Source: Microbacterium faecale
Lineage (GTDB): Bacteria > Actinomycetota > Actinomycetes > Actinomycetales > Microbacteriaceae
NCBI RefSeq assembly: GCF_014640975.1
Contig: NZ_BMHO01000001.1
Span: 382,166 to 446,165 of the forward strand
Length of the DNA: 64,000 nt
Reading direction: 5' to 3'
A model generated the notes under the pieces. That model was not told the origin of the DNA. It saw only the letters and a list, made by a program, of their open reading frames with translations, and made no database searches. Each line of letters starts with the position of its first letter. Positions within the stretch are counted from its first letter, which is position 1. Position numbers and translations under genes: made by a program. Of the stretch, positions 21,535-36,920 are shown piece by piece.

Positions 21535-22080
21535 TTGACCCCGAATTCCGGACACTGACCAGGCGGGTTCTGCGTGTTCGCGGGCTTGTCGGGGAGGTCG
21601 TCCGTGATGGGCACGAGCAAGAGGAAGACGTATACGCCGGAGTATCGGCGTGAGGCTGCGCGTTTGGTGATCGATACTGGTCGCACGATCGCGGCGGTCG
21701 CGCGGGAGATCGGCGTCGGTAAGCAGTTGCTGGGCTGGTGGGTCCAGCAAGAATGTGCCCGCGCCGGGGATGGGTTGACGCGCGGCTGGATCTGGATGAG
21801 CGGTCGGAGCTGGAACGGTTGCGCCGCGAGGTGCAGGAACTGCGGATGGACAACGAGTTCCTGGGGAAAAACGGCCGCCTTCTTCGCATCGAAGAAGAAG
21901 CTGCGTCTTCCGCCGGACCGTCGTGCGTTTGGGAGGCCATTTGGCGCCGATATCGAGGCGAACGCACGGCATCACGCGGATTCGCCGCGGCGCAGAGAAA
22001 GAATGGCCTGCCGAACGCACGGGCGCTCACCCGGGCCATCCCGTTCTGCTGGCGCGAGCGTCAGTCACCCGTCTCCGACG
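21535..22080 (+). mobile_element. decayed IS3-family element (orfA with frameshifts, truncated orfB)
   Basis: The left end resembles an IS3 terminus (TGACCCCGAATTCCGGACA from about 21538). OrfA begins at ATG 21607 (KRKTYTPEYRREAARLV, GVGKQLLGWWV) and then shifts frame: its continuation, ERSELERLRREVQELRMDN, is read in another frame near 21785-21865. Traces of orfB follow (MACRTHGRS; PFCWRERQSP). The rest of orfB and the right end are missing. The coordinates of the right edge are approximate. The element is inactive. Confidence 0.8.
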
Positions 22081-22158: not shown

Positions 22159-23082
22159 ATGACCGATGTCGTTCATGACGCCCGGGCGCGCGCAGAGCGC
22201 ACCGCACGAATTCGCCAACTAGGGCAGAATCTGAGCCCCGACATGGTGGTGGGCACGCAGAAAATTTGCGCCGAAGCGCTGCCGACGGCCCCCTTTGATG
22301 ACGTCGCAATTGTGCGCGACATCGCATACGGCTTGCACGAGCGCCACGTTCTCGATGTGTACTCACCGGCACCCCCGGCCTCGCCTGGTGGACGGCCAGT
22401 GGTTGTGTTTGTGCACGGCGGCGGATTCGTCGCGGGCAACAAGGGAAGCGATGATTCCCCGTTCGGCACGAACATCGGGGTGTGGGCTGTGCGCCATGGC
22501 CTGGTCGCGGTCGGAATCAACTACCGACTCGCCCCCGAGGCGTCGTGGCCCGACGGCGCGGATGACATCGCGGCGGCGCTGGAATGGGTACGCGATGAAA
22601 TCGGATCGTTCGGCGGCTCCGCCGACTCAGCGTTTTTGATCGGGCAGTCGGCCGGTGCCATGCACGTGGCCGACTACCTCGGTCGGGCGTCTCGCGTTGC
22701 CCCGCCACTCGAGCTCGTGGGGGCGGCGCTGATTTCGTGCCTGTACGACGTCGGCTCGGCCGCAGACCTTCCCATGCACCGCGCCTACTGGGGCGATGAG
22801 TTGAGCCGATGGGCCGACATGGGGTCGCTCTCGACGGTCATCGAAACGACCACTCCGCTGTTTCTCGCCGTTGCGGAGTTCGATGAGCCGCAGTTTCTCG
22901 CGCACGCGCTCACAATGGCTCAGCAGTGGACCGACACTCACGGCACCTTCGCGCCGCTGCATCTCGTGCCGGGCGAGAATCACCTCTCGACGGTGTACCG
23001 GCTCGGTTCGACGGATGACATTCTCGGACCCCCCCTGCTGACATTCATCAGCGAAGCGCTGGCGATCAGTCCAAGCCGATAA
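22159..23082 (+). CDS. alpha/beta hydrolase (HSL-type esterase/lipase family)
   Basis: 307 residues from ATG 22159 (GAGGAGA 8 nt upstream). The oxyanion-hole motif HGGG (86-89) and nucleophile motif GQSAG (Ser164) place it with hormone-sensitive-lipase-like or arylformamidase-like esterases. A likely acid is in AEFDEPQF and the His in GENHLS. No signal peptide, so it is cytoplasmic. It lies at the left edge of the aromatic-type region and might open an ester before further degradation. Its last 17 nt overlap the end of the convergent ATPase gene. Confidence 0.88.
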   Translation: MTDVVHDARARAERTARIRQLGQNLSPDMVVGTQKICAEALPTAPFDDVAIVRDIAYGLHERHVLDVYSPAPPASPGGRPVVVFVHGGGFVAGNKGSDDSPFGTNIGVWAVRHGLVAVGINYRLAPEASWPDGADDIAAALEWVRDEIGSFGGSADSAFLIGQSAGAMHVADYLGRASRVAPPLELVGAALISCLYDVGSAADLPMHRAYWGDELSRWADMGSLSTVIETTTPLFLAVAEFDEPQFLAHALTMAQQWTDTHGTFAPLHLVPGENHLSTVYRLGSTDDILGPPLLTFISEALAISPSR

Positions 23083-24157
23083 GCGACGTCGTCTCCACGG
23101 CGAACTCGTGCGTTGCGCCCAGATACTTCTCCTGCACCTGTTCGCGAGACGAGTCGGGAATCGTCGCGATAACGCGAGTGTCGGGGGCGACCTCGACTTC
23201 GACGCGGTACGCGTCACCGAGGTAGCTTGACGCACGCACGACTCCTCGGAATGTGACGCACGACGAAGGCGCCAGCTCTTGGGCAAACCGCACGTCAGCA
23301 CTCCGGAATGCGATGGATCCGTGCCGCCGGAGCGTTGACTGTGACACATCGCCCGCGAGTTCTCCACCGCCCACGAGAGCGATGCGCTCTTCTGAACTGT
23401 TCGCGGTGTCGACCTCGAAGATGTTGTCAAAGCCTACGAAGTCGGCGACCCAGGGTGAGACCGGCTTTGCGAAGATCTCGTGCGGACTGCCTGCCTGCTC
23501 GACGCGCCCCTGATTGAGCACGACGATGTAGTCGGAAATCGCGAGCGCCTCTTCTTGGTCGTGCGTGACGTACACCGAGCTGTAGCCGAGTGCGTCATGC
23601 AGGCGACGGATTTCGGTGCGCATGCTCAATCGCAACTTGGCATCGAGGTTGGAGAGAGGCTCATCGAACAGAAGAAGGCCCTGTGCCGAAACGAGCCCTC
23701 GGGCGAGAGCCACTCGCTGTTGCTGGCCGCCCGACAATTCGTGCGGGTAGCGGTGCTCGTATCCGACGAGCCCTACCGTGCTCAGCGCATCCCGCGCCTT
23801 GCCCTCTGCGTCGGCGCGGCCGGTGCCGCGCAGACGCAGAGGGTAGGCAACGTTCGCCATGACACTCTTGTTGGGCCAGAGTGCATAGCTTTGAAACACC
23901 ATGCCCAGGTGACGCTTGTTCGGGGCGGTGTAGTGACCGGCCTTCACGTCAACGAACACGTCGTCGCCGAAGGTGATGCGCCCGGCATCCGGCACCTCGA
24001 GTCCTGCCAAGCAGCGCAGGGTTGTCGTCTTTCCGCACCCGCTCGGCCCGAGCAGGGTCGTGAACGACCCCGGCTGCAGGTTGAGGCTGATGCCTTCGAC
24101 GGCGACGCTGCCGCCCGGAAAGTGCTTGGCGAGACCTTCGATGCTGAGCGCATGCAT
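23066..24157 (-). CDS. ABC importer ATP-binding protein (FbpC/PotA-like)
   Basis: 363 residues. Walker A GPSGCGKTTTLR, signature LSGGQQQRVALARGL, Walker B LLLFDEPLSNLDAKLR and the C-terminal TOBE-like domain are all present. A GGAG lies 8 nt before the ATG at 24157. It is the third gene of a binding protein, permease and ATPase unit read on the minus strand, of the ferric-iron/polyamine/2-aminoethylphosphonate transporter class. Substrate unknown. Confidence 0.93.
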   Translation of the reverse strand: MHALSIEGLAKHFPGGSVAVEGISLNLQPGSFTTLLGPSGCGKTTTLRCLAGLEVPDAGRITFGDDVFVDVKAGHYTAPNKRHLGMVFQSYALWPNKSVMANVAYPLRLRGTGRADAEGKARDALSTVGLVGYEHRYPHELSGGQQQRVALARGLVSAQGLLLFDEPLSNLDAKLRLSMRTEIRRLHDALGYSSVYVTHDQEEALAISDYIVVLNQGRVEQAGSPHEIFAKPVSPWVADFVGFDNIFEVDTANSSEERIALVGGGELAGDVSQSTLRRHGSIAFRSADVRFAQELAPSSCVTFRGVVRASSYLGDAYRVEVEVAPDTRVIATIPDSSREQVQEKYLGATHEFAVETTSLIGLD

Positions 24158-24196
24158 GTTGTTTGCTCCGGAGAAGTGGTCGTTGACAGCGATGGA

Positions 24197-25342
24197 CTAG
24201 TTTTTGAACGCCTGCTCGATGAGTGGCAGCAGGCGGCTACGTGACTCGTCGATGACGGTGTGGTCGACGATTTCGGTCGCTCCGCTCTCGGTGATCGAGG
24301 TCCACGGTGCGGCCGGGTCGGCGGCGCGTTCGTCGAGAGGCATGAAGCCGACCTCAGCGAGCAGTTCTTGCGCGCTGAGCAGGTTCATGAACTCTATGTA
24401 GAGCTTGGCGGTGTTTGGGTTCGGTGCGCCCTGCAGCAGCACGTGCTTGTGCGAGATGAGCGGGTTGTACTCCGAGAAGACGCGGAACTCGACCGGGGCG
24501 CCGGCATCCGCTGCCTTCACGACGGCCGATACAGGAGCTCCGAACATGAACGGGAACTCGCCCTGCATGAGGCCACCGATCGCCTGACCGTAATCGCCCT
24601 TGAGGCTGGCGTTTGCGCCGAGACCTGTGAGGTCTTCTTCGGTCAGCCCACCGCTGTTGAGCAGGTAGAGAAGCGCGGCCTGCTGCGGGCCGGGGATGGT
24701 GGGGTCACCCATGCCGATCAGCCCTGTGAATCGCGGGTCTGAGAGGTCGGCGAACGACTCGGGTGGCGCACCGGCTTCGCTCGACCGCGGCAAGAAGGTG
24801 CCCAACCCGAAATACCCGAGGAAGGGCACATTGAACCGGTGCTCGGGGTCGATGATCGAGTCGGCAGAGCCCGCGAGTGCCTCCGGCACCTCGAGCGTCT
24901 GCACTTCGTACGGCTCGCCGAAGTCGCCCGCCGCGTTCTCGTTGACGTAGAGCTGCGCGTCGGGGTTGTGCAGGATGTCAGCGACGTGATTGTTGGATGC
25001 ATTTTCGGTCGAGAGCGCTTGCACGAGCGGGGCGCCAATCAGGCCCTCGGCGGTGACCGAGACGCCCGGGAAGGTTTCTTCAAAGAGGGCGTAGACCTCG
25101 ACGAGGTCGTCTGGGGTGCCGGAGTAGATGGTGAGGCCACCCTCGTCCTGTGCGGCTTCATACAGTTCGGTCAGGTATGCGGCCTGCTCTTCGGTGATGC
25201 CTTCGGCCGCGGCATCGACGATGTAGTCGGTGTCATCGGGGGTGCTGGTGTCGCTGGGTGCGTCTGTCGTGCCCGCGCATCCAGAGATGACGAGGGCGGC
25301 ACCGAGTAAGAGCGCTGCGGTAGACAGTTTCTTGGATTTCAT
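24197..25342 (-). CDS. ABC importer substrate-binding lipoprotein (FbpA/PotD-like)
   Basis: 381 residues with a lipobox ending in Cys22 (LVISGCAG). The mature protein looks like the FbpA/AfuA-type binding proteins (GGLTIYSGTPDDLVEVYALFEE). I could not identify the adjacent Tyr pair that binds iron in FbpA, so a different cargo is likely. It lies between its permease and ATPase genes. Given its neighbours, an aromatic or carboxylic acid is a reasonable guess, but no more than that. Confidence 0.9.
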   Translation of the reverse strand: MKSKKLSTAALLLGAALVISGCAGTTDAPSDTSTPDDTDYIVDAAAEGITEEQAAYLTELYEAAQDEGGLTIYSGTPDDLVEVYALFEETFPGVSVTAEGLIGAPLVQALSTENASNNHVADILHNPDAQLYVNENAAGDFGEPYEVQTLEVPEALAGSADSIIDPEHRFNVPFLGYFGLGTFLPRSSEAGAPPESFADLSDPRFTGLIGMGDPTIPGPQQAALLYLLNSGGLTEEDLTGLGANASLKGDYGQAIGGLMQGEFPFMFGAPVSAVVKAADAGAPVEFRVFSEYNPLISHKHVLLQGAPNPNTAKLYIEFMNLLSAQELLAEVGFMPLDERAADPAAPWTSITESGATEIVDHTVIDESRSRLLPLIEQAFKN

Positions 25343-25375
25343 GTGAATTACTACTCCATCGGGGTGGCCGGGTGG

Positions 25376-27235
25376 TTATCGGGTGTGGGTGGATGTCTGA
25401 CCTCGAGGAGCCGCGGGTGCAAGCGCGCTCTTCGAGTCGTGCGGGGGAAGGGCGACGCGGGTGGCGCCGGTCCAGTCGCGGTCGACGTCTGCTGAGGGGA
25501 GTCGCCGGGGGAGGCGCGCGCGGGTGAGGAGGCGCTTGGCGATCTCGACGAGAAGGGTGATGACGAGGATCTCGACGACGAACAGCACGAAGATGGCGGC
25601 GGCGGTTACCACGTTGGCTGACGTGTAGAGGTCGTACACCTTGACCGCGAGCAGGGTCTGCCCACGGGGGCTAAGCAGCAGCGGGACGGCGAGCGAGCCC
25701 GAAACGACGACGAAGCAGAGCAACCAGCCGTTGAGGGCGCTCGGAAGCAACAGGCGGAAGACGACGCCCACCAGGGCGCGACCGCGAGATGATCCCGAGA
25801 CGCGAGCGGCTTCTTCGAGTTCTTCAGGTATCTGCGCGAGGGCGCCGGCGACTGCGCGGCTCGCGAGCGGAACGATGGCGATAAAGAGAGCGACCATCAG
25901 CAGCCAGTACGTGCCGTATGCGCTCGCGAGCGGGGTGAACAGCACCACGGTGATGAGTCCGATACCCAGCAGCAGACCGGGCACGATCATCGGTGCGACC
26001 TGGCTGGTGTCGATCACCGTCGCGAGGGGGCCGCGGCGCATCCGCGTGGCCCACCCGAAGACGATCACGGCGACGACGGCGATGGCGGCGGCGGCCGCAG
26101 CGACGCTCGCCGTGTAAGCGAGGATGCCGATAATTGCCGGGTCGCCGAGCACAGTGGCGAAGTTGTCGAGGGTGAACACTCCCTGAGCGCCGAAGTACGG
26201 GGCAAGCGAGGTCAACACGAGCTGCAGTGTCGGCATGATGACGACGACGAGGGAGAACACGATGATGGTGATCGCGATCGGCATCCGCCATGCGCCAAGC
26301 TTCCAGAGCGCGGTGCGTGCGCCCTTGCCGCTCACCGTGGTGAAGCGCCGTCGCCCGTGGAGTCTTCGTTCGACGATGAGCAGCGCGATCAAAATCAGCA
26401 GGAGGATGACGGCGACGCTGCTCGCTTGCCCGTAGAGAGGCCTCGTGGAGTCATACAGATATGTGAAGACTTCAGTGGGCAACACGTAGATGCCCGCGGG
26501 AACCCCGAGCACAACCGGAACGTCGAACGCTTCGATCGATGCCACCGTGGCGATGATGAGCACGCTCGTGAGTGTCGGCAGAAGCAAAGGCAGCTGCGTG
26601 CCGAAGAAGGTGCGGATGGCGCCGGCGCCGCTCACGCGCGCTGCCTCTTCGAGGGAGCGATCCATCTGGCTGAATGGCCCGAGCAGCAGCAGGTACATAA
26701 ACCCCGTGCCGCGGAAGATCGACACGAGAATGAGACCCAACCACGATTCGACGTTGAGGGGACCCGAACCCCACGGCTCACCGCCGCGCAAAATCACGTT
26801 GAGGATGCCGACCGTGCTGTTGCCGAGCAGGCCCCACGCCACGGCATAGAACATCGGCGGGGTTGCCACCAGAATCGCCATCGTGATGGTGACGACCCAC
26901 TTGAGGGGCGAGTCGGTGCGGGTCACGAGCACCGCGAAGAAGGTCGCGATGATCATGCTGGGGATGACGCTGGCGACCGTGAGCAACACGGAGTTGCCGA
27001 GAGCGACCCAGGTGTCGGAATCGGAGAAGACCTGAGTGATGGGTTCGAGTGACCATTCACCGTTGAACGGGGTGGTGCGAAAGGCGCTGATGACAACGGC
27101 GATGACGGGCGAGGCGAAGAGCGCAAGGGCAACGATCGCGATCGCGATCTGAATGTTGCGCACGGGGTAGAGCGCCCACTGGCGCCGCCACCAGTTCGCC
27201 TGATGCGAAGGTGGGGGTGCAGAAGTGCGGGTCAT
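25376..27235 (-). CDS. ABC importer permease, fused two-domain type
   Basis: 619 residues from ATG 27235 (GGAGAGGAAG just upstream). Two BPD_transp_1 units of six helices each are joined in one chain, each with an EAA loop (EEAARVSGAGAIRTFFG near residue 220 and EEAARVSGSSRGRALVG near residue 500). This double permease is usual in FbpB-like systems. First gene of the importer operon. Confidence 0.92.
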   Translation of the reverse strand: MTRTSAPPPSHQANWWRRQWALYPVRNIQIAIAIVALALFASPVIAVVISAFRTTPFNGEWSLEPITQVFSDSDTWVALGNSVLLTVASVIPSMIIATFFAVLVTRTDSPLKWVVTITMAILVATPPMFYAVAWGLLGNSTVGILNVILRGGEPWGSGPLNVESWLGLILVSIFRGTGFMYLLLLGPFSQMDRSLEEAARVSGAGAIRTFFGTQLPLLLPTLTSVLIIATVASIEAFDVPVVLGVPAGIYVLPTEVFTYLYDSTRPLYGQASSVAVILLLILIALLIVERRLHGRRRFTTVSGKGARTALWKLGAWRMPIAITIIVFSLVVVIMPTLQLVLTSLAPYFGAQGVFTLDNFATVLGDPAIIGILAYTASVAAAAAAIAVVAVIVFGWATRMRRGPLATVIDTSQVAPMIVPGLLLGIGLITVVLFTPLASAYGTYWLLMVALFIAIVPLASRAVAGALAQIPEELEEAARVSGSSRGRALVGVVFRLLLPSALNGWLLCFVVVSGSLAVPLLLSPRGQTLLAVKVYDLYTSANVVTAAAIFVLFVVEILVITLLVEIAKRLLTRARLPRRLPSADVDRDWTGATRVALPPHDSKSALAPAAPRGQTSTHTR

Positions 27236-27394
27236 CGCTTCCTCTCCATTGAGGTGTGAACTCGGCGATCGCGACGTGCCGGAGGTATCGTGCGGGATCG
27301 GGGTGTGGTCAGTATGACTGCGGCGGGCGGCGGCTTCGCTGGTGTCTCGCACCAAGGGGCCGCGAGTCGTTGTGTCTGCGCACCAGTCGAGAGT

Positions 27395-28501
27395 TCACCC
27401 GGCGTCAGCGAAGGTGATCACGGGTTTGACCGTGCGGCCGGATGCCATATCGGCGAACGCCTCATTGATGTTTGCCAGCGGATAGGTGGTGATCAGGCGG
27501 TCGATGGGATAGTCCCCCGCCTCGTACGCGGCGACCAGGTCGGCGAGAAAGACGAGTCCGGTCGCGTCGCCGCCCATGATGCCGCGAAGCTGCGCGCCCT
27601 TGACGAGCATCGGGCCGAGATCGATGTCGATGTGCGCGCCCATCCCTGCGACGAATCCGCACACGCCGCGGATGGCGAGCGCATCGACGGCTGACGCGAT
27701 GAGCGCGGGGACACCGGTCGTATCAAGGGCGCGATCGGTGCCTCCACGAGTGAGGTCTTTCAGTGCCGTGGCGATGTCGGACGCCTCGTCTGTGTTGAGG
27801 GTGGACGTCGCGCCGAGTGTCTTGGCGAGCTCGAGGCGCTCGGGATGCCGATCGATGGCGATGATCGACCGCATCCCCGCCATCCGTGCGGCCATGATCG
27901 CAGCTAGACCCACTGTCCCTACACCGAAGACCGTGAAGGAGTGCGCCGGACGCACATCGAGGGCGAGAAGGGCCGATGCTGCCCCGGTGCTGACGCCGCA
28001 CGCGAGTGCGGCGAGCTCGTGCCACGGGGCATCCGTTGTCACCTTGAGAACGTTGCGCTCTGTGACCAATGCGTAGCGCGAGAAGGAGGACTGACCGAAG
28101 AAGCCCGCCCGCACGGGCGCACCATCGCGGTGCGCTTTCGTGGAGCCATCTTCGCGCGTGCCGGCAAAGATGAGTGCGCGCGACTTCTCGCAGTAAGTCG
28201 TGAAGCCGGTACGGCACTGGTCGCAGCGCCCGCAGAAGTCGGGCGCGAGAATCACACGGTCGCCGGGGGCGACGCTGGTGATGAGCGAGCCCACCGCCAC
28301 CACGACACCCGCTCCTTCGTGCCCCAGCACGACCGGCATCTGGACCCCCAGGCGTCCCGCCGCGGCCGACATGTCGGTGTGGCAGATGCCGGTGGCGCGC
28401 ACATCGACGAGTATTTCGTCATCGCGCGGGTCGTCGAGCGTGATGTCTGCAATCTGAAGGGGTTGACCCGGTTCGACGGCGATGGCAGCTGAGGTCAGCA
28501 T
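27395..28501 (-). CDS. zinc-dependent alcohol dehydrogenase (aryl-alcohol type)
   Basis: 368 residues of the medium-chain family. Catalytic zinc ligands are C40, H61 and C168. The structural zinc cluster C90, C93, C96, C104 (FCGRCDQCRTGFTTYC) is complete. The cofactor motif is GVGTVG (193-198). It resembles class III/benzyl alcohol dehydrogenases, so an aryl alcohol/aldehyde is a likely substrate given the two aldehyde dehydrogenases nearby. It is divergent from one of these, with a perfect inverted repeat over its ribosome binding site. Confidence 0.9.
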   Translation of the reverse strand: MLTSAAIAVEPGQPLQIADITLDDPRDDEILVDVRATGICHTDMSAAAGRLGVQMPVVLGHEGAGVVVAVGSLITSVAPGDRVILAPDFCGRCDQCRTGFTTYCEKSRALIFAGTREDGSTKAHRDGAPVRAGFFGQSSFSRYALVTERNVLKVTTDAPWHELAALACGVSTGAASALLALDVRPAHSFTVFGVGTVGLAAIMAARMAGMRSIIAIDRHPERLELAKTLGATSTLNTDEASDIATALKDLTRGGTDRALDTTGVPALIASAVDALAIRGVCGFVAGMGAHIDIDLGPMLVKGAQLRGIMGGDATGLVFLADLVAAYEAGDYPIDRLITTYPLANINEAFADMASGRTVKPVITFADAG

Positions 28502-28510
28502 GCGCGGGCT

Positions 28511-28539
28511 CCTTCCGGTGAGCGATGGTCACCGGAAGG
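28511..28539. repeat. perfect 10-bp inverted repeat covering the ADH ribosome binding site
   Basis: CCTTCCGGTG (28511-28520) and CACCGGAAGG (28530-28539) with a 9-nt spacer. Read on the minus strand, one arm supplies the GGAAGGAG Shine-Dalgarno of the dehydrogenase. It may be an operator for a dimeric regulator, or an RNA hairpin that hides the ribosome binding site. Confidence 0.6.
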
Positions 28540-28692
28540 CATCGGCGCCCATCGGTTGAGATGGTGGTGGAGTTCCGACACTCGATCACTGTCGTCGACA
28601 CCCGAGGTCGCGCCGGTTTCTGCGCGCCGCCCACAGTGACGGGGCGCAGGTCGCTGCATGAGAGTGTGCGGGTGACACACATTCCCAGCGCA

Positions 28693-30240
28693 ATGGTGCG
28701 CCCGCAGTGGCGCGATGCAACCGCCTACATCAACGGCATCTCTCGCGACGAGGGCGCGTATGTGCCCGTGCTTGATCCGGCATCCGGCCAGCAAGTCGGT
28801 CGTGTTCAGTTGGGCGATGCGGATGCCGCCGACGACGCCGTCGCGGCGGCCGTCGCCGCTTTTCCCGCATGGCGAGACCTCTCCCCGGCGGAGCGCGGTC
28901 AGCAGCTTCGCCACGCCATCACGGTGGCCGAGAAGGAGGTCGGTGAGCTCGCCGCGACCGTCAGCTTCGAGGTCGGAAAGATCCGACACGAGGCGTTCGG
29001 CGATGTCGCGGGGTCGCTCGCGCTGCTTCGCGGCTTCATCCGGCTTGTCGACGAGGAATCTGGGCGCGAGGACTACACGGGCGAAGACGGCACGTCGGGG
29101 GCGACTCTCGTGCGAATCCGTCACGTGCCGGTGGGCCCCGTGAGCGTGATCGGGCCGTGGAACACACCCCTCTTCTTAACGTTCAATGGTGTGGCGCCCG
29201 CGCTCGCGTCGGGCTGCACCGTGGTCGTGAAGCCGCCCGTCGAGGCACCGTTGGCGCTCACCGCACTCGTGCGCATTCTCGCCGCTGAATTGCCACCCGG
29301 CGTGCTCAACATCGTGCCCGGACGGGGTGCCGTCGTGGGGCAGAGACTTGCAGAGCATCCCGACGTGCGCGCCGTCATCTTCACCGGTGGCACCGCGACA
29401 GGCCGCTCGATTGCCGCTGCCGCGTCGAGCACGGTCAAGAAGGTGGCGCTCGAACTTGGCGGCAACGACCCCGCGATCGTTCTCGAATCCGCGACTGTCA
29501 CGCCGCAGCTGATAAGCGAACTCATCGCCGGCGCGTTCTCGATGACCGGTCAGATCTGCTTCAACATCAAGCGACTGTATGTGCACCGCGACCGCTACGA
29601 CGAGGTCGTGGTGGGTTTGCGCGACGTGCTCTCGCGAGTCGTTGTGGGCGACCCCAACGACGAAGCCACACATATCGGCCCGCTCACCACCCGTGACGGG
29701 TATGAGAACGCACTGCGCCTGCTTGCCGCCGCACGGGATGCCGGAGCGCGAGTCGAAGAGCTCGGCACTCGCGGCGCGACCGCCCGGTGGGAAGACGGGT
29801 TCTACGTGCGCCCCACCCTCGTCACCGACATCGCCGCCGATCACGAGCTGGTGCTCGACGAGCAGTTCGCGCCGATCTTGCCGATCATTGCGTTTGACGA
29901 CGATGACGACGCCGTGCGAGAGGCCAACCGCACGGAGTTCGGACTGGCGTCGAGCATCTGGTCAGACGACCTCAGGCACGCCGAGGCTGTGGCGCGCCGC
30001 ATTGAGGCCGGGAGCACCTTCATCAACGCGCACCGCCTCGGCGCTTCGGTGCCGCGTACACCATTCGGCGGGGTGAAGCAGTCGGGGCTCGGGCGCACGC
30101 ACGGCCTGTACTCACTGCACCACTGCACGCAGGAGCACGCGATTGTCGGGTTTGAGGATGCCGCTCGGACGCTACCGGGCTTGGACCGCTGGATGCAGCT
30201 CGCCCAGAAAGAAACCACGGTCAAGGGAGATCAGAAATGA
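28693..30240 (+). CDS. aldehyde dehydrogenase (NAD(P)-dependent, aryl-aldehyde type)
   Basis: 515 residues from ATG 28693; upstream in-frame codons to 28525 have no conserved content. Catalytic Cys289 (MTGQICF), general base Glu254 (LELGGNDP) and Asn157 (GPWNTPL) are intact. Closest by eye to benzaldehyde/vanillin-type dehydrogenases. The next gene overlaps its stop (ATGA), so it works with the LigW-type decarboxylase. Confidence 0.9.
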   Translation: MVRPQWRDATAYINGISRDEGAYVPVLDPASGQQVGRVQLGDADAADDAVAAAVAAFPAWRDLSPAERGQQLRHAITVAEKEVGELAATVSFEVGKIRHEAFGDVAGSLALLRGFIRLVDEESGREDYTGEDGTSGATLVRIRHVPVGPVSVIGPWNTPLFLTFNGVAPALASGCTVVVKPPVEAPLALTALVRILAAELPPGVLNIVPGRGAVVGQRLAEHPDVRAVIFTGGTATGRSIAAAASSTVKKVALELGGNDPAIVLESATVTPQLISELIAGAFSMTGQICFNIKRLYVHRDRYDEVVVGLRDVLSRVVVGDPNDEATHIGPLTTRDGYENALRLLAAARDAGARVEELGTRGATARWEDGFYVRPTLVTDIAADHELVLDEQFAPILPIIAFDDDDDAVREANRTEFGLASSIWSDDLRHAEAVARRIEAGSTFINAHRLGASVPRTPFGGVKQSGLGRTHGLYSLHHCTQEHAIVGFEDAARTLPGLDRWMQLAQKETTVKGDQK

Positions 30241-31292
30241 GTACTGAAAGCTCAACCGCGCGCGCGTACCGCCGGATTGCCACCGAAGAGGCCTACGCGC
30301 CGCAAGAACTCATCGATGAATATCTGCGTCTGTTGAAGACGGACAACGTCGAGATCGGCTTTCGATCACTCATGGGCTACTTCTTGCAGTCGTCCCACCC
30401 GCAACCCCAGCAGGTCGTGTCGCGTCTCGCCGATCTCGGCGAGCGACGCATCGCCGACATGGATGCTGCGGGCATCGACCACCAGATTCTCTCGCTCACC
30501 TCGCCCGGCACTCAGGTGCTGTCGGTGGATGCCGCCCGCGACTTTGCGAGACTCGCGAATGACCGCATCGCAGAGGCGGTGCGGGCACATCCCACGCGCT
30601 ACTCGGGCCTTGCCGCCGTCGGATTCGAAGACGCGCCGTCGGCCGTTGAAGAGCTCGAACGCGCTGTGACAACGCTTGGCCTGAAGGGCCTCATCGCGAA
30701 CTCGCATATCAAGGGCACCTACCTCGATGCGCCGCAGTACCTGCCGATTCTGCAGGCGGCCGCCGATCTTGATGTGCCGGTGTACCTGCATCCTCAGACG
30801 CTTCCTGATGCGGCGATCTCGCCGTATGTCGAGGCTGGTCTCGACGGTGCCGTGTGGGGTTTCGCCGCTGAGACCGGCCTGCACCTGCTGCGCATGATCA
30901 CGAGCGGCCTGTTCGATCGCGTGCCGAATCTGCGTGTCGTGGTGGGGCACCTGGGTGAGGGGTTGCCGTACTTCTTGTCGCGTATTGATCACATGCATCA
31001 GAAGCAGGTGGCATCCGGTCGCTATGAGGCGATCAAGCCTCTGCAGCAGAAGCCGAGTGAGTACCTGCGCACGCACATCTGGTTGACGACGAGTGGGATG
31101 CCGTGGGAGCCCGCGATTACCTTTGCGCGCTCGGTGCTCGGCAACGACCGGGTGATGTATGCGATGGATTACCCGTACCAGTACGAGCTGGACGAGGTGG
31201 CGCAGATGGATGCGCTGTCGTACAGCGAGCAGGAGCGGTACGAGTTCTTCCAGGGGATCGCGGAGCGGGTGTTCAAGCTGCCGCGATTGTAG
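30237..31292 (+). CDS. amidohydrolase-family aromatic-acid decarboxylase (LigW/gamma-resorcylate decarboxylase-like)
   Basis: 351 residues of the amidohydrolase_2 fold. The start RRIATEEAYAP is typical of 5-carboxyvanillate decarboxylase LigW. Candidate metal ligands and catalytic residues are E17 or E18, H185 (VYLHPQT), H238 (VVGHLGEG) and D311 (YAMDYPY), at nearly the spacing reported for LigW (E19, H188, H241, D314, from memory). It should remove CO2 from a hydroxylated benzoate without an organic cofactor. The exact substrate is unknown. It is coupled to the aldehyde dehydrogenase that could form its acid substrate. Confidence 0.85.
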   Translation: MSTESSTARAYRRIATEEAYAPQELIDEYLRLLKTDNVEIGFRSLMGYFLQSSHPQPQQVVSRLADLGERRIADMDAAGIDHQILSLTSPGTQVLSVDAARDFARLANDRIAEAVRAHPTRYSGLAAVGFEDAPSAVEELERAVTTLGLKGLIANSHIKGTYLDAPQYLPILQAAADLDVPVYLHPQTLPDAAISPYVEAGLDGAVWGFAAETGLHLLRMITSGLFDRVPNLRVVVGHLGEGLPYFLSRIDHMHQKQVASGRYEAIKPLQQKPSEYLRTHIWLTTSGMPWEPAITFARSVLGNDRVMYAMDYPYQYELDEVAQMDALSYSEQERYEFFQGIAERVFKLPRL

Positions 31293-31322
31293 CCCCCGCG
31301 GCTGTAGGCGGCGACAAACGCC

Positions 31323-31338
31323 CCGACCGTGCGGTCGG
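31323..31338. terminator. small hairpin after the decarboxylase gene
   Basis: CCGACC-GTGC-GGTCGG, 31 nt past the stop at 31292, followed by a mixed sequence without a clear U-tract. Weak terminator candidate. Confidence 0.35.
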
Positions 31339-31385
31339 TGAATCGGCCTGAATTTCGTTCCGTTTTCAAGCAACGATGGAACTCG

Positions 31386-31861
31386 ATGAACAGGAAGTAT
31401 TCGCCGGAGATGCGTGAGCGGGCGTTGCGGATGCTCGTGGAGGCGCGGCCCGAGCATCCGAGCATGATGAGCGCAGTCCGGCACGTCGCGGGTGTGCTGG
31501 GGATGAGTCCGGAGACGTTACGGTTATGGCAGCTGGGGCTCCCCTGATCCATGCGGACCTGCAGGTTGCCGGGGTGGCGATCGCACGTAAGACCGTCGCG
31601 AAACTCATGCAGGCAGACGGGATCACCGGAATCAGTCCGGCCACCTGGCACCCATAGACATCGATCCACGCCGCCCGCCGCGGCGCCTACGTCTGGATCG
31701 ACGGCTGGTACAACGCCCAGAGGCGCCACTCCGCGATCGGCTACCGCAGCCCGCTATCGTACGAACGACGCCAGCTCACGCTGGCAGCCGGACCAACCAA
31801 CCACCTGTCCGGGAAACGAGGTCAGCCTCACCCCGAGCGGTGTCGAGATTCACTTCACTGA
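31386..31861 (+). mobile_element. second decayed IS3-family element with internal deletion
   Basis: ATG 31386 opens an orfA fragment (NRKYSPEMRERALRMLVEAR, GVLGMSPETLRLW) that stops by 31547. An orfB fragment in another frame follows (IHADLQVAGVAIARKTVAKL, ending in TAG at 31655). The same frame then resumes at the orfB C-terminus (YVWIDGWYNAQRRHSAIGYR) up to a stop near 31861. The catalytic core of the integrase is missing, so it cannot move by itself. Its orfA differs from that of the copy at 21.6 kb. The 654-base gap between the decarboxylase and oxygenase genes holds this remnant and two hairpins and no intact gene. Confidence 0.8.
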
Positions 31862-31907
31862 GTTCGGCGGCAGCGGGGTGGAGCTTCACCGCCCCTGAGC
31901 CCCCGGC

Positions 31908-31938
31908 GCAGCACCCGCTGAAGGATCAGAGGTGCTGC
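31908..31938 (-). terminator. hairpin after the carotenoid oxygenase gene
   Basis: GCAGCACC (31908-31915) and GGTGCTGC (31931-31938) form an 8-bp perfect stem with a 15-nt loop, 8 nt past the oxygenase stop. No U-tract follows on the minus strand. A second hairpin (GGGGTGG/CCGCCCC) lies just beyond at about 31875-31895. Confidence 0.45.
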
Positions 31939-31946
31939 ACCCCGCC

Positions 31947-33377
31947 TCACACGTTGTGCGCGAAGCTGCCGTGGAATGTGAAGTGCGGTGCGAAGGGGAT
32001 CTTCGCCCGTGCGATGGGGCCGGCAGCCAGGTCGGTCGCATCGAGGATCAAAAGCTCGCCGCGGTTGGTGTGATAGTGATTGACCACCGTCACGATGAAC
32101 CCGTCGCCCTCGGCTGCGTCGGCCGATCTCGGCACAAAAATCGGCTCGTGCGCGAGTGACGGGGGAGCCATGGGGAACGTCGCGATCTCACGCGTGGCCC
32201 AGTCGATGCGGGAGATCCCCTCGGCACTCTTGAAGAACCCGTAGCGGTACTTCTCCATCGCGAAGCGGTCATCGATGCGGGGCATCTCGCCCACTGCACC
32301 CTCGATGGGCTCGACGGTGGGTTCGTCACCGTCTGCGCCCAGGTCAAAGGTGAGGCGAGTGATGAGACCGAAGCTTTCGTCGACCGGGGTCGGGTTGCCG
32401 TCCACTCCGGTGAAGAAGGGGAATGGGTTTCCGGGCGAGACGGGAGCATCTACGATGACGGTCGATCCCTCGGTGTACGCGTTCATGATGTGACCAACAA
32501 CGACGTCGGGGGCGCGGAACCAACGGATGTCGGCGACGGTTCCAGAGCGCGGCATGATGCCCCACATCGACGGCAACTCGGGATCGTAGGCGTAGAAATC
32601 TCCGCCCGCCTTCGCGCGCTCGATGTCAACCGTCAGCGGTTGGATGTCGAAGATGACGTGCTCGCGAGTGACGGCGAAGTCGTGCATAAGGCCCGGATAC
32701 GGAGCCTGGAATTGCTCTTCGCGGATCAGGTTGCCATCGGCATCCGCCACGATCAGCGCCACCTCGCCATCGAAACGGCGGTCGGCGAAGAGGCCGAACG
32801 CCCACCACTCACCGGTGACGGGGTCGATCTTGGTGTGTGCCGAGAGGGCCTTGCTCTTGAGTTTGCCGTCGAAGTCGAACTTCTCGAGCGTCTCAAGGGT
32901 GTCCGGGTCGATCTCGTACGGGTGCGAGTCTTCACGCAACGCGAAGAGTCTGCCGTTGAACCACTGCGCGAACGTGTTGCCGGTGTTGTCGCGGTCGGCG
33001 ATCTGCGGGGCGTCGGGCTCGTCGGTGTAAGGGTTGCGGTATTCGTTGTAAAGGCGGCGGCGCGCAGCGCGCTGGGTGAGGTAGCGCTCGGTCTTGACGT
33101 ACCGCGAACGGAAGTCGACGTGCCCGTCTTCGATGCGGAACTTGAGCATCAGCCCGTCGCCGTTGATGATGTTGTCGTCGTCGCCAAGCACCGGATACAG
33201 GGTGTCGCCACCAAGACGGTAGAGCGTGCCGTTGAGCTCGGCCGGCACGATGCCCTCGATCTCGCAGTCGTAGACATCCGCTTCCAACCGCACGGTCGGG
33301 AGGCTCTTGCCGTAAAAGCTCGGAATCGGGTGGAAGGCGGCTTGCCGGTACGAAGCCGAGGCAGTGCGATCGGTCAT
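31947..33377 (-). CDS. carotenoid oxygenase-family, lignostilbene-dioxygenase-like enzyme
   Basis: 476 residues from ATG 33377, chosen because GAGGAG lies 9 nt upstream; a start at 33413 would add 12 residues. The four His that bind Fe(II) in this seven-bladed propeller are visible: H181 (LSAHTKIDP), H232 (MHDFAVT), H296 (GHIMNAY) and H469 (FTFHGSF). Their spacing is close to NOV1 (167, 218, 284, 476, from memory). No signal peptide. Bacterial family members mostly cut the central C=C of 4-hydroxystilbenes with O2 to give two aromatic aldehydes, and the aldehyde dehydrogenase in the same operon fits that. Retinoid or carotenoid cleavage is less likely, since no carotenoid genes are nearby. 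Last gene of the operon. Confidence 0.88.
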   Translation of the reverse strand: MTDRTASASYRQAAFHPIPSFYGKSLPTVRLEADVYDCEIEGIVPAELNGTLYRLGGDTLYPVLGDDDNIINGDGLMLKFRIEDGHVDFRSRYVKTERYLTQRAARRRLYNEYRNPYTDEPDAPQIADRDNTGNTFAQWFNGRLFALREDSHPYEIDPDTLETLEKFDFDGKLKSKALSAHTKIDPVTGEWWAFGLFADRRFDGEVALIVADADGNLIREEQFQAPYPGLMHDFAVTREHVIFDIQPLTVDIERAKAGGDFYAYDPELPSMWGIMPRSGTVADIRWFRAPDVVVGHIMNAYTEGSTVIVDAPVSPGNPFPFFTGVDGNPTPVDESFGLITRLTFDLGADGDEPTVEPIEGAVGEMPRIDDRFAMEKYRYGFFKSAEGISRIDWATREIATFPMAPPSLAHEPIFVPRSADAAEGDGFIVTVVNHYHTNRGELLILDATDLAAGPIARAKIPFAPHFTFHGSFAHNV

Positions 33378-33434
33378 CAGTGGGTACTCCTCATCGTTGA
33401 GTGCGGTTGTCAAGCGAGCGGGTTCGAGCGCGTG

Positions 33435-33956
33435 TCACGCCGTGCGATGCACGTCGCTCGCGGGCGGCATCGTGTACTTCGGGCGGCCCTTGAGGTGCAG
33501 TTCCCCCTGCCAGGGCACCTGGTCGAGCGAGGTCCACGCGTTCACGGTCAGCGACTGGAACAGCCACCGGCCGTCGCGCTTGGTCACGTGATCGGTGCGA
33601 GTGCCGATGCCGAAAACAAAGTTCGTGCCGTAGTCGACGTTGAACTGCAGAATCTGAAAGAAGCACCGCACCTTCGCCTCGCCAGGCTGATCGAGGGGAT
33701 CCATGATGAAGTGATCCATCAGGTGCTGGCGTCCGTACCACCAGTGCTGGCGGTCGTTCCACAGCGAACGCAGGTTCTCGCGGATCGCATCGTGACCCTG
33801 CACGCGCCCCTGCCAGAGGTGCTCAAACCAACCGTCGTCGGCGAACGCCGACAGCGCCATCTCTTCATCGGCGAGATCGATGCCCCACGCGTACCGCGCG
33901 TAGAGCTCCATGATCTCAAGGCGGTCTTCTGCGGTCAGCTTCCAATCGGCGGTCAT
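33435..33956 (-). CDS. NTF2-like (SnoaL_4) protein, candidate cofactor-free lyase or isomerase
   Basis: 173 residues. An N-terminal helix pair (DRLEIMELYARYAWGIDLAD) and a cone-shaped sheet with RQHLMDHFIM (H78, H82), QFNVDYGTNF and RWLFQSLTVNAW are typical of the SnoaL-like/NTF2 superfamily. It overlaps the aldehyde dehydrogenase gene by 4 nt and is followed by the stilbene-dioxygenase-like gene. Known aromatic relatives of this fold include ring-hydroxylase beta subunits (no alpha subunit here) and the diarylpropane lyases LsdE/LdpA, which release formaldehyde to form lignostilbene. The second option fits the neighbourhood but is an inference. Confidence 0.8.
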   Translation of the reverse strand: MTADWKLTAEDRLEIMELYARYAWGIDLADEEMALSAFADDGWFEHLWQGRVQGHDAIRENLRSLWNDRQHWWYGRQHLMDHFIMDPLDQPGEAKVRCFFQILQFNVDYGTNFVFGIGTRTDHVTKRDGRWLFQSLTVNAWTSLDQVPWQGELHLKGRPKYTMPPASDVHRTA

Positions 33957-35398
33957 TGCTTCACTCCAAATCGGTCGTTCTGAATATCGGCGGGCGTGCC
34001 GTGGTTGGTCATGAGCGCCTTGCGCCGCAGAAACCGCAGGATCGCGTCGGGCCCGGTGCGCGCGCCGCCGATCCCCGAGTTGCCGAACGCATTCGTGCCG
34101 ACCGTGCGCATCTTGCCGAACGTGAGAAACGTGTCTTGCAAGAAGAGTGACCCTGCATTGATCTGTCGCCCAATCGCGAGAGCTTCGCTCTCGTCGCCCG
34201 CGATGACGGATGCCGTCAACCCAAAGTCGGTGTCGTTTGCGAGCGCGATGGCCTCGTCGATGTCGCTGTAAGCCATGACCGGGATCGTCGGCCCGAACGT
34301 CTCATCGCGCATGATCAGCATGTCGTGAGTGACGTCGACCAGGATCGTCGGTCGCAGGTATAGGCCCCCGCCGAGCGTTTCGATCTGACCGGCCTCAACG
34401 ATGCGCGCCCCCCGCGCCACCGCGTCATCGAGGTGGCGCTGCACGACCTCGGCCTGGCGTTCGAAGATGAACGGGCCGAGGTGGCCGACCTTGACATCCT
34501 CGTCGTTAAGCGCGACTGCGCGCGCCTTCTCGGCGAGCAGCGCTACGAACTCGTCATGGATGCTCTCATGCACGTAGACGCGCTCGATCGAGTAACAGAC
34601 CTGGCCGGTGGCGTAGACGCCGCCGCGGAGCACGGCCATCACAGCACGGTCGAGGTCTGCTGACGCCGTGACGATTGCGGGATCTTTGCCGCCCAGTTCG
34701 AGATACGCCGGAATCAGGCGTTCGGCGCACGCTACGGCGACCTTGCGGCCGGTCGGGACGCTCCCGGTAAAGCAGACCATGTCGACGTGCTCAATCAGCG
34801 TCGCACCGACCGGCCCATCGCCCTCGACGTAATCAAAGACGGCCGCCAGCTCGGGCACCGCGCGCACCGACGCGAACAGCGGCTCCAAGAATCGAGGTGT
34901 GACCTCCGAGGGCTTCAGCAGCACGGCCGAGCCCGCGAACAAGGCGGGAATCGCATCGAGAAGAGCGAGCATCATCGGCGCATTCCACGGCGAGATCACT
35001 CCGACGAGCGAGTAAGGCACAAGCTGCGTGCGCACCTCGACGTCGGGCATGGATGCCGAATGCCGGTGCACGGATGCGCGATTCAGCGCCTCTTCGGCAT
35101 CCTGCACCCAGCCGTCGATGTTGGTCATCGTGATGTACCCCTGTGACCACGAGGTGGAGACACCACCCGTATCAGCGGCATCACGCTCGCCGATCTCAAC
35201 CGCACGTTGAGCGACCTCGCCCAACCACCGGCGCATCACGGCGACGCGCCCGGCAATGCCGAGGGCCTCCCACGCGGGCTGCTGCGCGCGAAGCGCTGCG
35301 GCCTTGGCTGCGACCTCATCGGGCGTGGCCACCGTGATCGTTGTGTCGGGCGTACCCGTGCGGGGGTTTCGTACCGGAAGCGTTCGTGCGCTCACCAT
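33953..35398 (-). CDS. aldehyde dehydrogenase (aromatic-aldehyde type)
   Basis: 481 residues from ATG 35398, with GAGGAGACGG upstream; the longer reading to 35614 would overlap the regulator and the operator. Catalytic Cys268 (ATGQVCYS), Glu234 (LELGGKDP) and Asn139 (SPWNAPM) are intact. First gene of the operon with the NTF2-like and oxygenase genes. It would oxidise the aldehydes made by stilbene cleavage to carboxylic acids. It is clearly different in sequence from the second aldehyde dehydrogenase at 28693, so the two may each handle one aldehyde. Confidence 0.9.
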   Translation of the reverse strand: MVSARTLPVRNPRTGTPDTTITVATPDEVAAKAAALRAQQPAWEALGIAGRVAVMRRWLGEVAQRAVEIGERDAADTGGVSTSWSQGYITMTNIDGWVQDAEEALNRASVHRHSASMPDVEVRTQLVPYSLVGVISPWNAPMMLALLDAIPALFAGSAVLLKPSEVTPRFLEPLFASVRAVPELAAVFDYVEGDGPVGATLIEHVDMVCFTGSVPTGRKVAVACAERLIPAYLELGGKDPAIVTASADLDRAVMAVLRGGVYATGQVCYSIERVYVHESIHDEFVALLAEKARAVALNDEDVKVGHLGPFIFERQAEVVQRHLDDAVARGARIVEAGQIETLGGGLYLRPTILVDVTHDMLIMRDETFGPTIPVMAYSDIDEAIALANDTDFGLTASVIAGDESEALAIGRQINAGSLFLQDTFLTFGKMRTVGTNAFGNSGIGGARTGPDAILRFLRRKALMTNHGTPADIQNDRFGVKQ

Positions 35399-35494
35399 CG
35401 CACCCGTCTCCTCGTCGTTGAAGTGTGTGCCGTCGAGCGCGTTCGGAGCCCGACGGCACTGAGTGAACCAGCCGCGACTTCGGGGTGTCACGGT

Positions 35495-35532
35495 GCCCAC
35501 GACATGACTTTCTCGATGCTCATGTCGCGGGC
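35495..35532. promoter_or_regulatory. long inverted repeat in the divergent promoter region (candidate PucR-type operator)
   Basis: Arms GCCCACGACATGA (35495-35507) and TCATGTCGCGGGC (35520-35532) match at 12 of 13 positions around a 12-nt spacer. It lies between the aldehyde dehydrogenase start (35398, minus) and the regulator start (35613, plus), where a regulator of both would bind. Confidence 0.5.
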
Positions 35533-35612
35533 GACAGTGGGCAGAGATCACTATGGGCAAAGGCTTAGACTGTCCACGCCACCGGTACGAAGACGAACGG
35601 GATGGAGCACAC

Positions 35613-36920
35613 ATGCAGTGGCTGACGCGATTACAGCCCCGTGGCGGTGAGTGGTCGTACGATCAGCTACACGAACTCAGCGCCAGCACTCCCGTCTTGC
35701 TTGCGCAAGCGTTCGAGACGCTCGGTCGGCAAGCGACCGCGTGGGCGGTGGAAGCGAGCAGTCACGCGTCAACCAGCTTCTTCGAGCGGGAGCGTGTGCG
35801 CGGTCTCCCCGCATCGACGACAGGCCGTGCCCGGCAGGCCACCGAACGAGCACTCATGACGATGCTGATGTCGATGCGCGAGGGAAAGTCGGCATTCCGA
35901 TCGGGGTTGCCGGAGGAATTCGTCGACATCATCCGCGCGGATGTGCGCCATGGCATCCCCCTCGACGCCCTCATGAACCGGGTGTGGAGCGTGCATTCGA
36001 TGGCTAAAGACATCCTCGTTGAGTCGCTGCGAGAGGTGGTGGAGCCGACCGAGTTTCCGCAGGTCATGCGAAGCGTCGGAGACGCCGCGTTCGATTTCGC
36101 CAACGACTTCGTGCGGCATGTGTCGACCGCATACGACGCCGAGCAGCGTGCATGGCGCGGACGGCGCGGTGAGGAACAGTTTCAGATCGCCGAAGCCGTG
36201 GCGTTGGGATCTGACGCGGCTTCGGACTCGGACGGGGTGCTTCCCGCGCACTGGAGCGGCTGGCATGTCTATGCCGTGAGTTGGATCGAAGACCCTGGGT
36301 TCGCCAAGAAGTACGATACCGAGCTTGCCGAGTTCACCGCCGCTGTTGCGACCATGCTCGATGCATCGAACGTGTTTATCTTCGAGCGCGACGGATTCAC
36401 GCACCTGTGGTGGAACGTCGAGGCGAGAGCGTCGAAGCCCGAGGTTCAGGCGATCCTCGGAGTCGAGCGGCCCGACTGGCTGCGGCTCGCGGTCGGGCCC
36501 GCCGCCCGCGGCGTCGAAGGCTTTCGTGACACTTACGGGGCGGCGGTGCAGGTCGCCGACATTCGTGCGTACAACACGGTCGACACGGTCTTTTTCTCTG
36601 ACGAGGTCGGACACCTCCTGCTGATGCTCGCCGACCACGGACGTGCAGCTCGGTTTGTGCGCCGCGAACTCGGGGGCCTCGCATCGACCGAACCTCGCGT
36701 CGTCGAGATTCGTGAGACCGTGCGGCTGTACCTCAGCAGCGGCAACAGTCGCCTCGCGGTGGCTAACGCGCTGCACCTTGCCCCCAATACGATCGCCTAC
36801 CGGGTGGGTCAGGCGAACGAACTCCTGCCGCAACCCGTGAGTGAGCGGCCAACCACGATCCTTCTTGCGCTCCAACTGCTTTACCTCGTGCCGAATCTGA
36901 TCGCGGAGGCAGGCGAGTAG
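35613..36920 (+). CDS. PucR/CdaR-family transcriptional regulator
   Basis: 435 residues from ATG 35613, preceded by GGATGGAGC; an ATG at 35553 is an alternative. A helical N-terminal region (about 1-200) is followed by a GGDEF-like sensory part and a C-terminal PucR-type HTH (VRLYLSSGNSRLAVANALHL, APNTIAYRVGQANELL). Such proteins activate purine or aromatic catabolism genes in actinobacteria. It is divergent from the aldehyde dehydrogenase/NTF2/oxygenase operon and is its likely regulator. Confidence 0.87.
   Translation: MQWLTRLQPRGGEWSYDQLHELSASTPVLLAQAFETLGRQATAWAVEASSHASTSFFERERVRGLPASTTGRARQATERALMTMLMSMREGKSAFRSGLPEEFVDIIRADVRHGIPLDALMNRVWSVHSMAKDILVESLREVVEPTEFPQVMRSVGDAAFDFANDFVRHVSTAYDAEQRAWRGRRGEEQFQIAEAVALGSDAASDSDGVLPAHWSGWHVYAVSWIEDPGFAKKYDTELAEFTAAVATMLDASNVFIFERDGFTHLWWNVEARASKPEVQAILGVERPDWLRLAVGPAARGVEGFRDTYGAAVQVADIRAYNTVDTVFFSDEVGHLLLMLADHGRAARFVRRELGGLASTEPRVVEIRETVRLYLSSGNSRLAVANALHLAPNTIAYRVGQANELLPQPVSERPTTILLALQLLYLVPNLIAEAGE

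Follow-up and report, generated by a model that had tools for sequence, protein, structure and literature searches.

The window analysed here, a 64,000-nt stretch of the Microbacterium faecale genome (assembly GCF_014640975.1, contig NZ_BMHO01000001.1, positions 382,166 to 446,165), carries a minus-strand operon of three genes that encode an aldehyde dehydrogenase (ALDH), a small protein of the NTF2 fold and a dioxygenase resembling the lignostilbene dioxygenases (LSDs). The arrangement is exactly the one described, with the same coordinates, in an earlier sequence-only reading: the ALDH and NTF2 genes share a 4-nt ATGA overlap, and 57 nt separate the stop of the NTF2 gene (33435) from the ATG of the oxygenase. 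Also supported is that reading's further description of an actinobacterial operon that joins an ALDH, an NTF2-fold protein and a stilbene-type dioxygenase and has a PucR-type regulator of its own, here divergent. The surrounding island reaches beyond the three genes (31947–35398) and extends from about 22159 to 36920, in window coordinates:

33953–35398, minus strand: ALDH, first gene of the operon (481 residues, ATG at 35398; PF00171, 344 bits)
33435–33956, minus strand: NTF2-fold SnoaL_4 protein of an uncharacterised subfamily, putative lyase (173 residues; PF13577, 63.4 bits, cut-off 24)
31947–33377, minus strand: LSD-like, stilbene-type dioxygenase of the carotenoid oxygenase family (476 residues, ATG at 33377; PF03055 (RPE65), 388 bits)
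about 35613–36920 (longest open reading frame from 35553), plus strand: PucR-type regulator, divergent from the operon (PF13556 HTH_30, 36.6 bits, cut-off 27)
30237–31292, plus strand: LigW-like decarboxylase (amidohydrolase superfamily), its gene convergent with that of the oxygenase (PDB 4inf, LigW, E 1.3e-113, 51% identity)
28693–30240, plus strand: second aldehyde dehydrogenase, ALDH2 (PF00171, 452 bits; 4-nt overlap with the LigW-like gene)
27395–28501, minus strand: zinc alcohol dehydrogenase (ADH), perhaps of aryl-alcohol type (best PDB matches 5tnx and 1f8f, benzyl alcohol dehydrogenase)
25376–27235, minus strand: ABC transporter permease (PF00528, two stretches)
24197–25342, minus strand: ABC transporter solute-binding protein (PF13343, 31.6 bits, cut-off 24.6)
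23066–24157, minus strand: ABC transporter ATPase (PF00005, 108 bits)
22159–23082, plus strand: alpha/beta hydrolase of esterase type (PF07859, 69 bits on 22183–23082; 44% identity to the cassette hydrolase of locus L002)

Five of these genes (ALDH, NTF2-fold protein, oxygenase, ADH and alpha/beta hydrolase) make up what we call the cassette. The window has all five, the hydrolase having been recognised through its counterpart in other cassette loci, and adds the ALDH2–LigW-like pair and the ABC transporter. The window ALDH scores under the cut-off of every NCBIfam model among the 25 listed of 42.

The three-gene operon is a real unit, more than a set of chance neighbours. A search with the NTF2 protein alone, over one genome per species in 84,980 species, found at least 79 loci; the counts given here cover the 79 listed, with partner genes scored by tblastn. 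Because the oxygenase is present in 71 of these loci (50 of the 54 with full flanks), the association exceeds chance. The gap between the two genes has a median of 143 bp and stays within 3 kb in 70 of the 71. Among the other partners, the ADH occurs in 54 loci, the hydrolase in 59 and the ALDH (at 45% identity or more) in 52, with ALDH relatives at 63–78% identity in 44; oxygenase, ALDH, ADH and hydrolase are found together in 44. The loci are mostly from Sphingomonadales, with others from Steroidobacteraceae, Nevskiaceae, Azospirillaceae, Caulobacterales and one Microbacterium, and are not independent, 30 tree rows being Erythrobacteraceae. Genes for MFS transporters lie in 19 loci, for GMC oxidases in 11 and for DUF3237 proteins, the family to which we take PhcF and PhcG of strain SYK-6 to belong, in 21. 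As a comparison, just 3 of the 61 SnoaL_4 matches in SYK-6 lie within 3 kb of any of its eight oxygenases; two of the three are at LSD7, and the cassette protein is one of that pair. Gene order within the cassette varies among loci and two oxygenase clades are used, yet the linkage is kept, which argues for a functional tie between the NTF2 protein and the oxygenase.

The oxygenase is of the stilbene-cleaving type, as the sequence-only reading proposed: by sequence, family scores and fold it is nearer the LSDs than the carotenoid enzymes. All four iron-binding histidines of carotenoid/stilbene oxygenases are in place, aligned with LSD4 His167, 218, 284 and 476, together with three acidic second-shell residues aligned with LSD4 Glu135, 353 and 418. 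PDB sequence matches are led by stilbene dioxygenases (5v2d at E 3.6e-107, LsdA, LSD4, NOV1, CAO1), with apocarotenoid oxygenase far behind. The NCBIfam LSD model scores 435 bits, under its cut-off of 800, versus 157 bits for the carotenoid model. Foldseek ranks 1–33 are stilbene or aromatic dioxygenases, and apocarotenoid oxygenase appears from rank 34; one entry among the first 33, 9g88, is titled carotenoid cleavage oxygenase, but the PDB match names its molecule lignostilbene dioxygenase. A grouping with apocarotenoid cleavage enzymes, which would have spoken against this identification, was seen in none of the three comparisons.

The window oxygenase shares iron ligands, second-shell acids, Tyr101 and fold with LSD1–8, 5v2d and NOV1, at 33–41% identity to the eight SYK-6 LSDs. 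It equals LSD7 at 14 of 15 pocket and iron-site positions, the exception being Arg for Lys134. Tyr101 and Lys134 form the pair that binds the 4-hydroxyl; the tyrosine is kept, and the lysine, found in all eight SYK-6 LSDs, is replaced, leaving the pair incomplete. Arg occupies this position in 27 of 27 aligned relatives, and 69 locus oxygenases divide into 29 with Arg and 40 with Lys. The substitution points to a changed ring-binding site. The Ile in place of Phe59 does not discriminate, since LSD5, LSD6 and LSD7 also have no Phe there. In a tree that was midpoint-rooted and had no carotenoid outgroup, the Arg-type enzymes form a separate clade (28 rows, 100/100) that includes none of the eight SYK-6 LSDs, and the LSD7 clade comprises 19 rows (100/100). 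The Arg and the Lys clade both pair with the same NTF2 subfamily.

The 173-residue protein belongs to the SnoaL_4/NTF2-like superfamily by its Pfam score and its fold, the AlphaFold model (pLDDT 91) being of the SnoaL/scytalone-dehydratase type. It is strongly conserved, with 46 columns invariant across 28 sequences, eight of them Trp. The sequence-only reading had taken it for a lyase of the LdpA/LsdE kind, and here its proposal fails at the family level. BLAST at E<1 did not connect SYK-6 LdpA (242 residues, tag SLG_12650 in PMC12997858, at L082:1456-2181 by gene order, 100% identical to PDB 8abv) with the window protein. The PDB matches at E<=1 to the sequence or its profile include no LdpA entry among the four considered, and a profile–profile comparison (hhalign) returned a probability of 15%, E 0.0018 and 25% identity over 137 columns. 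The likeness to LdpA (LsdE; 8abv/8abt) is confined to the fold and to one Asp, close to where helix 1 ends, that aligns in both, whereas length and invariant residues differ. LdpA/LsdE was thus rejected as its identity in favour of a separate SnoaL_4 subfamily; stilbene-forming deformylation by this protein is nonetheless possible. In the host genome the nearest match to LdpA, at 34%, lies within a tandem SnoaL_4 protein, and close homologues are absent. PcfL of strain F199 belongs with LdpA because the two are 44% identical, and it shares eight of the eleven LdpA active-site residues (PMC11323797); this placement follows the published identity. Proteins with repeated SnoaL_4 stretches also occur: a 643-residue protein with three lies about 26 kb after the window (L141:6003-7934), and single open frames with several matches were seen near G000:C1:245120 and G000:C2:98070 in the host genome and in SYK-6.

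A close counterpart of the cassette lies in SYK-6, where the ALDH, NTF2, ADH and hydrolase genes stand directly before LSD7 (SLG_09440), with tags that were deduced from this position and may be off by one. Identity to the window proteins is 74% for the NTF2 protein, 63% for the ALDH, 41% each for the ADH and the oxygenase, and 39% for the hydrolase. The SYK-6 cassette differs in having a MarR-type regulator and an oxygenase that keeps Lys134, and its 16.5-kb locus holds no LigW-like, PucR or ABC homologue. By tag order it lies between phcFG and phcCD (phcG SLG_09370, phcC SLG_09480, phcD SLG_09500; PMC12997858). The LSD7 gene is described as no more than about 5 kb from phcCD and phcFGH and as upregulated on DCA (PMC8191317). 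We found no publication on the SYK-6 genes SLG_09400–09430 in the open-licence literature.

The LigW-like enzyme has LigW as its nearest solved relative and is 51% and 48% identical to the 5-carboxyvanillate decarboxylases LigW and LigW2. In LigW, whose reaction is the loss of a carboxylate positioned ortho to a phenol, the metal is held by Glu19, His188 and Asp314 (PMC8187880); these three ligands are present in the window copy, which also keeps Phe212, His241, Arg252 and Tyr317. A second LigW-like gene in the host (C1:693559-714100, near pcaH), 56% identical to the window copy, keeps Arg58 and Tyr51. The same enzyme classes (NTF2 lyase, ALDH, LigW and LSD) make up the beta-5 cluster pcfL-ferD-ligW-lsdD of F199, which differs in that PcfL is an LdpA homologue and the window protein is of another subfamily. 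No orthologues of PcfL, FerD and LsdD of the F199 type were found in the window, with SYK-6 LdpA, FerD (by position) and LSD4 serving as stand-ins.

ALDH, NTF2 and oxygenase genes stand in the same order in Microbacterium sp. 18062 (L001) and in genome G235 (L157), which belongs to another genus of the host's family. G235 has the whole island plus two flavoproteins, one close to eugenol and vanillyl-alcohol oxidases; in strain 18062 the island is present as far as the examined locus extends, which ends before the hydrolase. The PucR-type regulators of the two are 61% and 54% identical to that of the window, respectively, and the ALDH2–LigW-like pair occurs in all three actinobacterial islands. 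Across 398 genomes sampled from the Microbacteriaceae, host included, the NTF2 profile matches three (E<=1e-30), one of them the distant G206; the LigW-like protein is found in four (E<=1e-60) and the oxygenase in four (E<=1e-40), at more than 80% identity only in the host and G235. The gene set was probably transferred. The island may be mobile, being rare, syntenic where found and accompanied by transposase remnants, one at its edge upstream of the hydrolase (HTH_Tnp_1, 38.6 bits, 21604–21783) and a weaker one, under cut-off, between the LigW-like and oxygenase genes (rve_3 tail, 20 bits, 31706–31849). For an adenylosuccinate-synthetase-type protein, identity between the host and Microbacterium sp. 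18062 is 86%, against 44% between the host and SYK-6.

Elsewhere in the host genome, five matches to SYK-6 LigM are 44–67% identical, two of them at 67% (C1:179677-188183, 649971-654604, 916702-917973), and a pcaH gene for the protocatechuate 3,4-dioxygenase beta subunit scores over cut-off, with a probable pcaG, in C1:693559-714100. LigM works with tetrahydrofolate. Judged by homology, this equipment suits the use of methoxylated lignin aromatics. The names LigM and FerD for the SYK-6 genes are presumed here, beyond their position next to genes tabulated in PMC12997858.

There is good support for a stilbene-type dimer-cleavage island in this actinobacterium. We read it as a system that imports a lignin-derived aromatic dimer and breaks it down by way of a stilbene, the dimer being most likely of the beta-5 (phenylcoumaran, dehydrodiconiferyl) type, and give this reading a probability of about one half, with the beta-5 chemistry as our best guess. 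The ABC transporter would take up the dimer, the hydrolase would cleave an ester if needed, and ADH and ALDH would oxidise the side chain. The NTF2-fold protein would then form the stilbene by cofactor-free elimination, perhaps losing formaldehyde as LdpA and PcfL do, and the Fe(II) dioxygenase would split it into two aromatic aldehydes. ALDH2 could oxidise the ring-formyl fragment, the LigW-like enzyme could remove the resulting carboxylate, and the LigM-type demethylases and protocatechuate 3,4-dioxygenase encoded elsewhere would finish the breakdown. What the sequences establish is the gene content, the linkage, the family placement and the residues of the active sites; substrate and reactions are inferred. 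Two features favour a beta-5 over a beta-1 substrate. In SYK-6 the cassette sits, by tag order, with phcFG on one side and phcCD on the other, both sets of beta-5 genes, and in the window the ALDH2–LigW-like pair, unneeded for beta-1 cleavage, converges on the oxygenase. Once a beta-5 stilbene had been cut and oxidised, a product would bear its carboxylate in the position ortho to a phenol that a LigW-type step requires; a beta-1 stilbene would yield no such product. The DUF3237 genes in the loci, the enzyme classes of the F199 cluster and the eugenol/vanillyl-alcohol-oxidase-type gene of G235 also count for beta-5. The reading as a whole draws further on the linkage in the 79 listed loci, on the agreement of the oxygenase active site with that of LSD7, an enzyme more active on lignostilbene than on DCA-S (PMC8191317), on the fold ranks and on the LigM and pcaH genes of the host.

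Several observations weigh against this reading. In all three island copies of the LigW-like enzyme, Arg58, a residue of the LigW active-site pocket (PMC6031855), is replaced by Gln and Tyr51 by Phe, so its substrate may differ from 5-carboxyvanillate; relatives of this enzyme occur in only 4 of the 79 listed loci, placing it outside the wider cassette. ALDH2 is 29% identical to the SYK-6 ALDH adjoining ligW2, taken as FerD by position, and is not a FerD orthologue; the host genome has no VanA match. Eight of the 79 listed loci are without the oxygenase, four of these with full flanks, and in G206 the gene calls surrounding a 41% relative of the NTF2 protein include no oxygenase. DCA-S is a poor substrate for LSD7 (PMC8191317), so that the SYK-6 cassette may act on a different dimer; and since SYK-6 makes DCA-S via PhcF/PhcG (PMC11323797), it has no obvious need for the NTF2 protein. 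We know of no measured activity for the NTF2 subfamily or the Arg-type oxygenase clade.

The sequence-only reading had proposed a beta-1 pathway, in which 1,2-diarylpropane-1,3-diols lose formaldehyde through the NTF2 protein to give lignostilbene, which the oxygenase cuts into two vanillins for the ALDH to turn into vanillate. Its enzyme classes in order, stilbene-type oxygenase and regulator all stand, and LSD7, the nearest active site among the eight SYK-6 enzymes, prefers lignostilbene; the LdpA identity does not stand, SYK-6 keeps LdpA and the 173-residue type as separate genes, and the ALDH2–LigW-like pair would be left without a role. We therefore consider beta-1 unlikely, and a less likely substrate type than beta-5. 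Doubtful, though a real contender, is the cleavage of some other styryl compound (a plant stilbenoid or a 4-propenylphenol, for instance), with the NTF2 protein acting on the product or as an isomerase or dehydratase: the Arg in place of Lys134 in 27 of 27 aligned relatives, the eugenol-oxidase-type gene of G235, the scytalone-dehydratase-like fold and the loss of Arg58 would all fit, but the remaining 14 compared residues match a lignostilbene cleaver, and the DUF3237, GMC oxidase and MFS transporter genes of the listed loci speak against it. That the NTF2 protein and oxygenase are merely co-inherited in a general aromatic-degradation island, the former having a binding or accessory role, seems improbable. 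The host genome does contain 20 SnoaL_4 stretches versus one oxygenase of the RPE65 family, so 19 stand apart from it, but linkage across phyla, with two oxygenase clades, differing gene orders and a short gap, argues otherwise, and the invariant columns suggest a catalytic pocket.

Returning to the beta-5 reading, we tentatively extend it to a possible further class of stilbene-forming lyase, a third beside LdpA/PcfL and PhcF/PhcG and of independent evolutionary origin. It would open beta-5 or related C–C linked dimers in sphingomonads as well as Actinomycetota, would work with a dioxygenase clade whose specificity is new, and would also give the SYK-6 LSD7 locus its function. The 173-residue protein is of a conserved, uncharacterised type that is also present, unexplained, in SYK-6, a well-studied lignin degrader. 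If true, this reading would add a cofactor-free aromatic lyase of a new type to the enzymes of lignin use, and the open question of what LSD7 and its neighbours do in this model strain would become a test on one small protein. For C–C linked lignin dimers, stilbene routes are known chiefly from sphingomonads (PMC12997858), and a five-gene cassette shared with actinobacteria would carry such a route into another phylum. Partial beta-5 sets in actinobacteria were already predicted, since organisms reported to have at least two beta-5 enzyme homologues (>50% identity) include them, all four being reported only in 82 Alphaproteobacteria (PMC11323797). In the open-licence literature, no title or abstract on lignostilbene or phenylcoumaran in actinobacteria or Microbacterium describes this cassette.

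A minus-strand group of genes about 25–29 kb before the window (L138:10983-16375) likely serves the use of plant C-glycosides: it encodes a C-glycoside deglycosidase beta subunit (CGDB, 53.5 bits), a 260-residue SnoaL_4 protein and, under cut-off, a pyranose-oxidase-like GMC enzyme.

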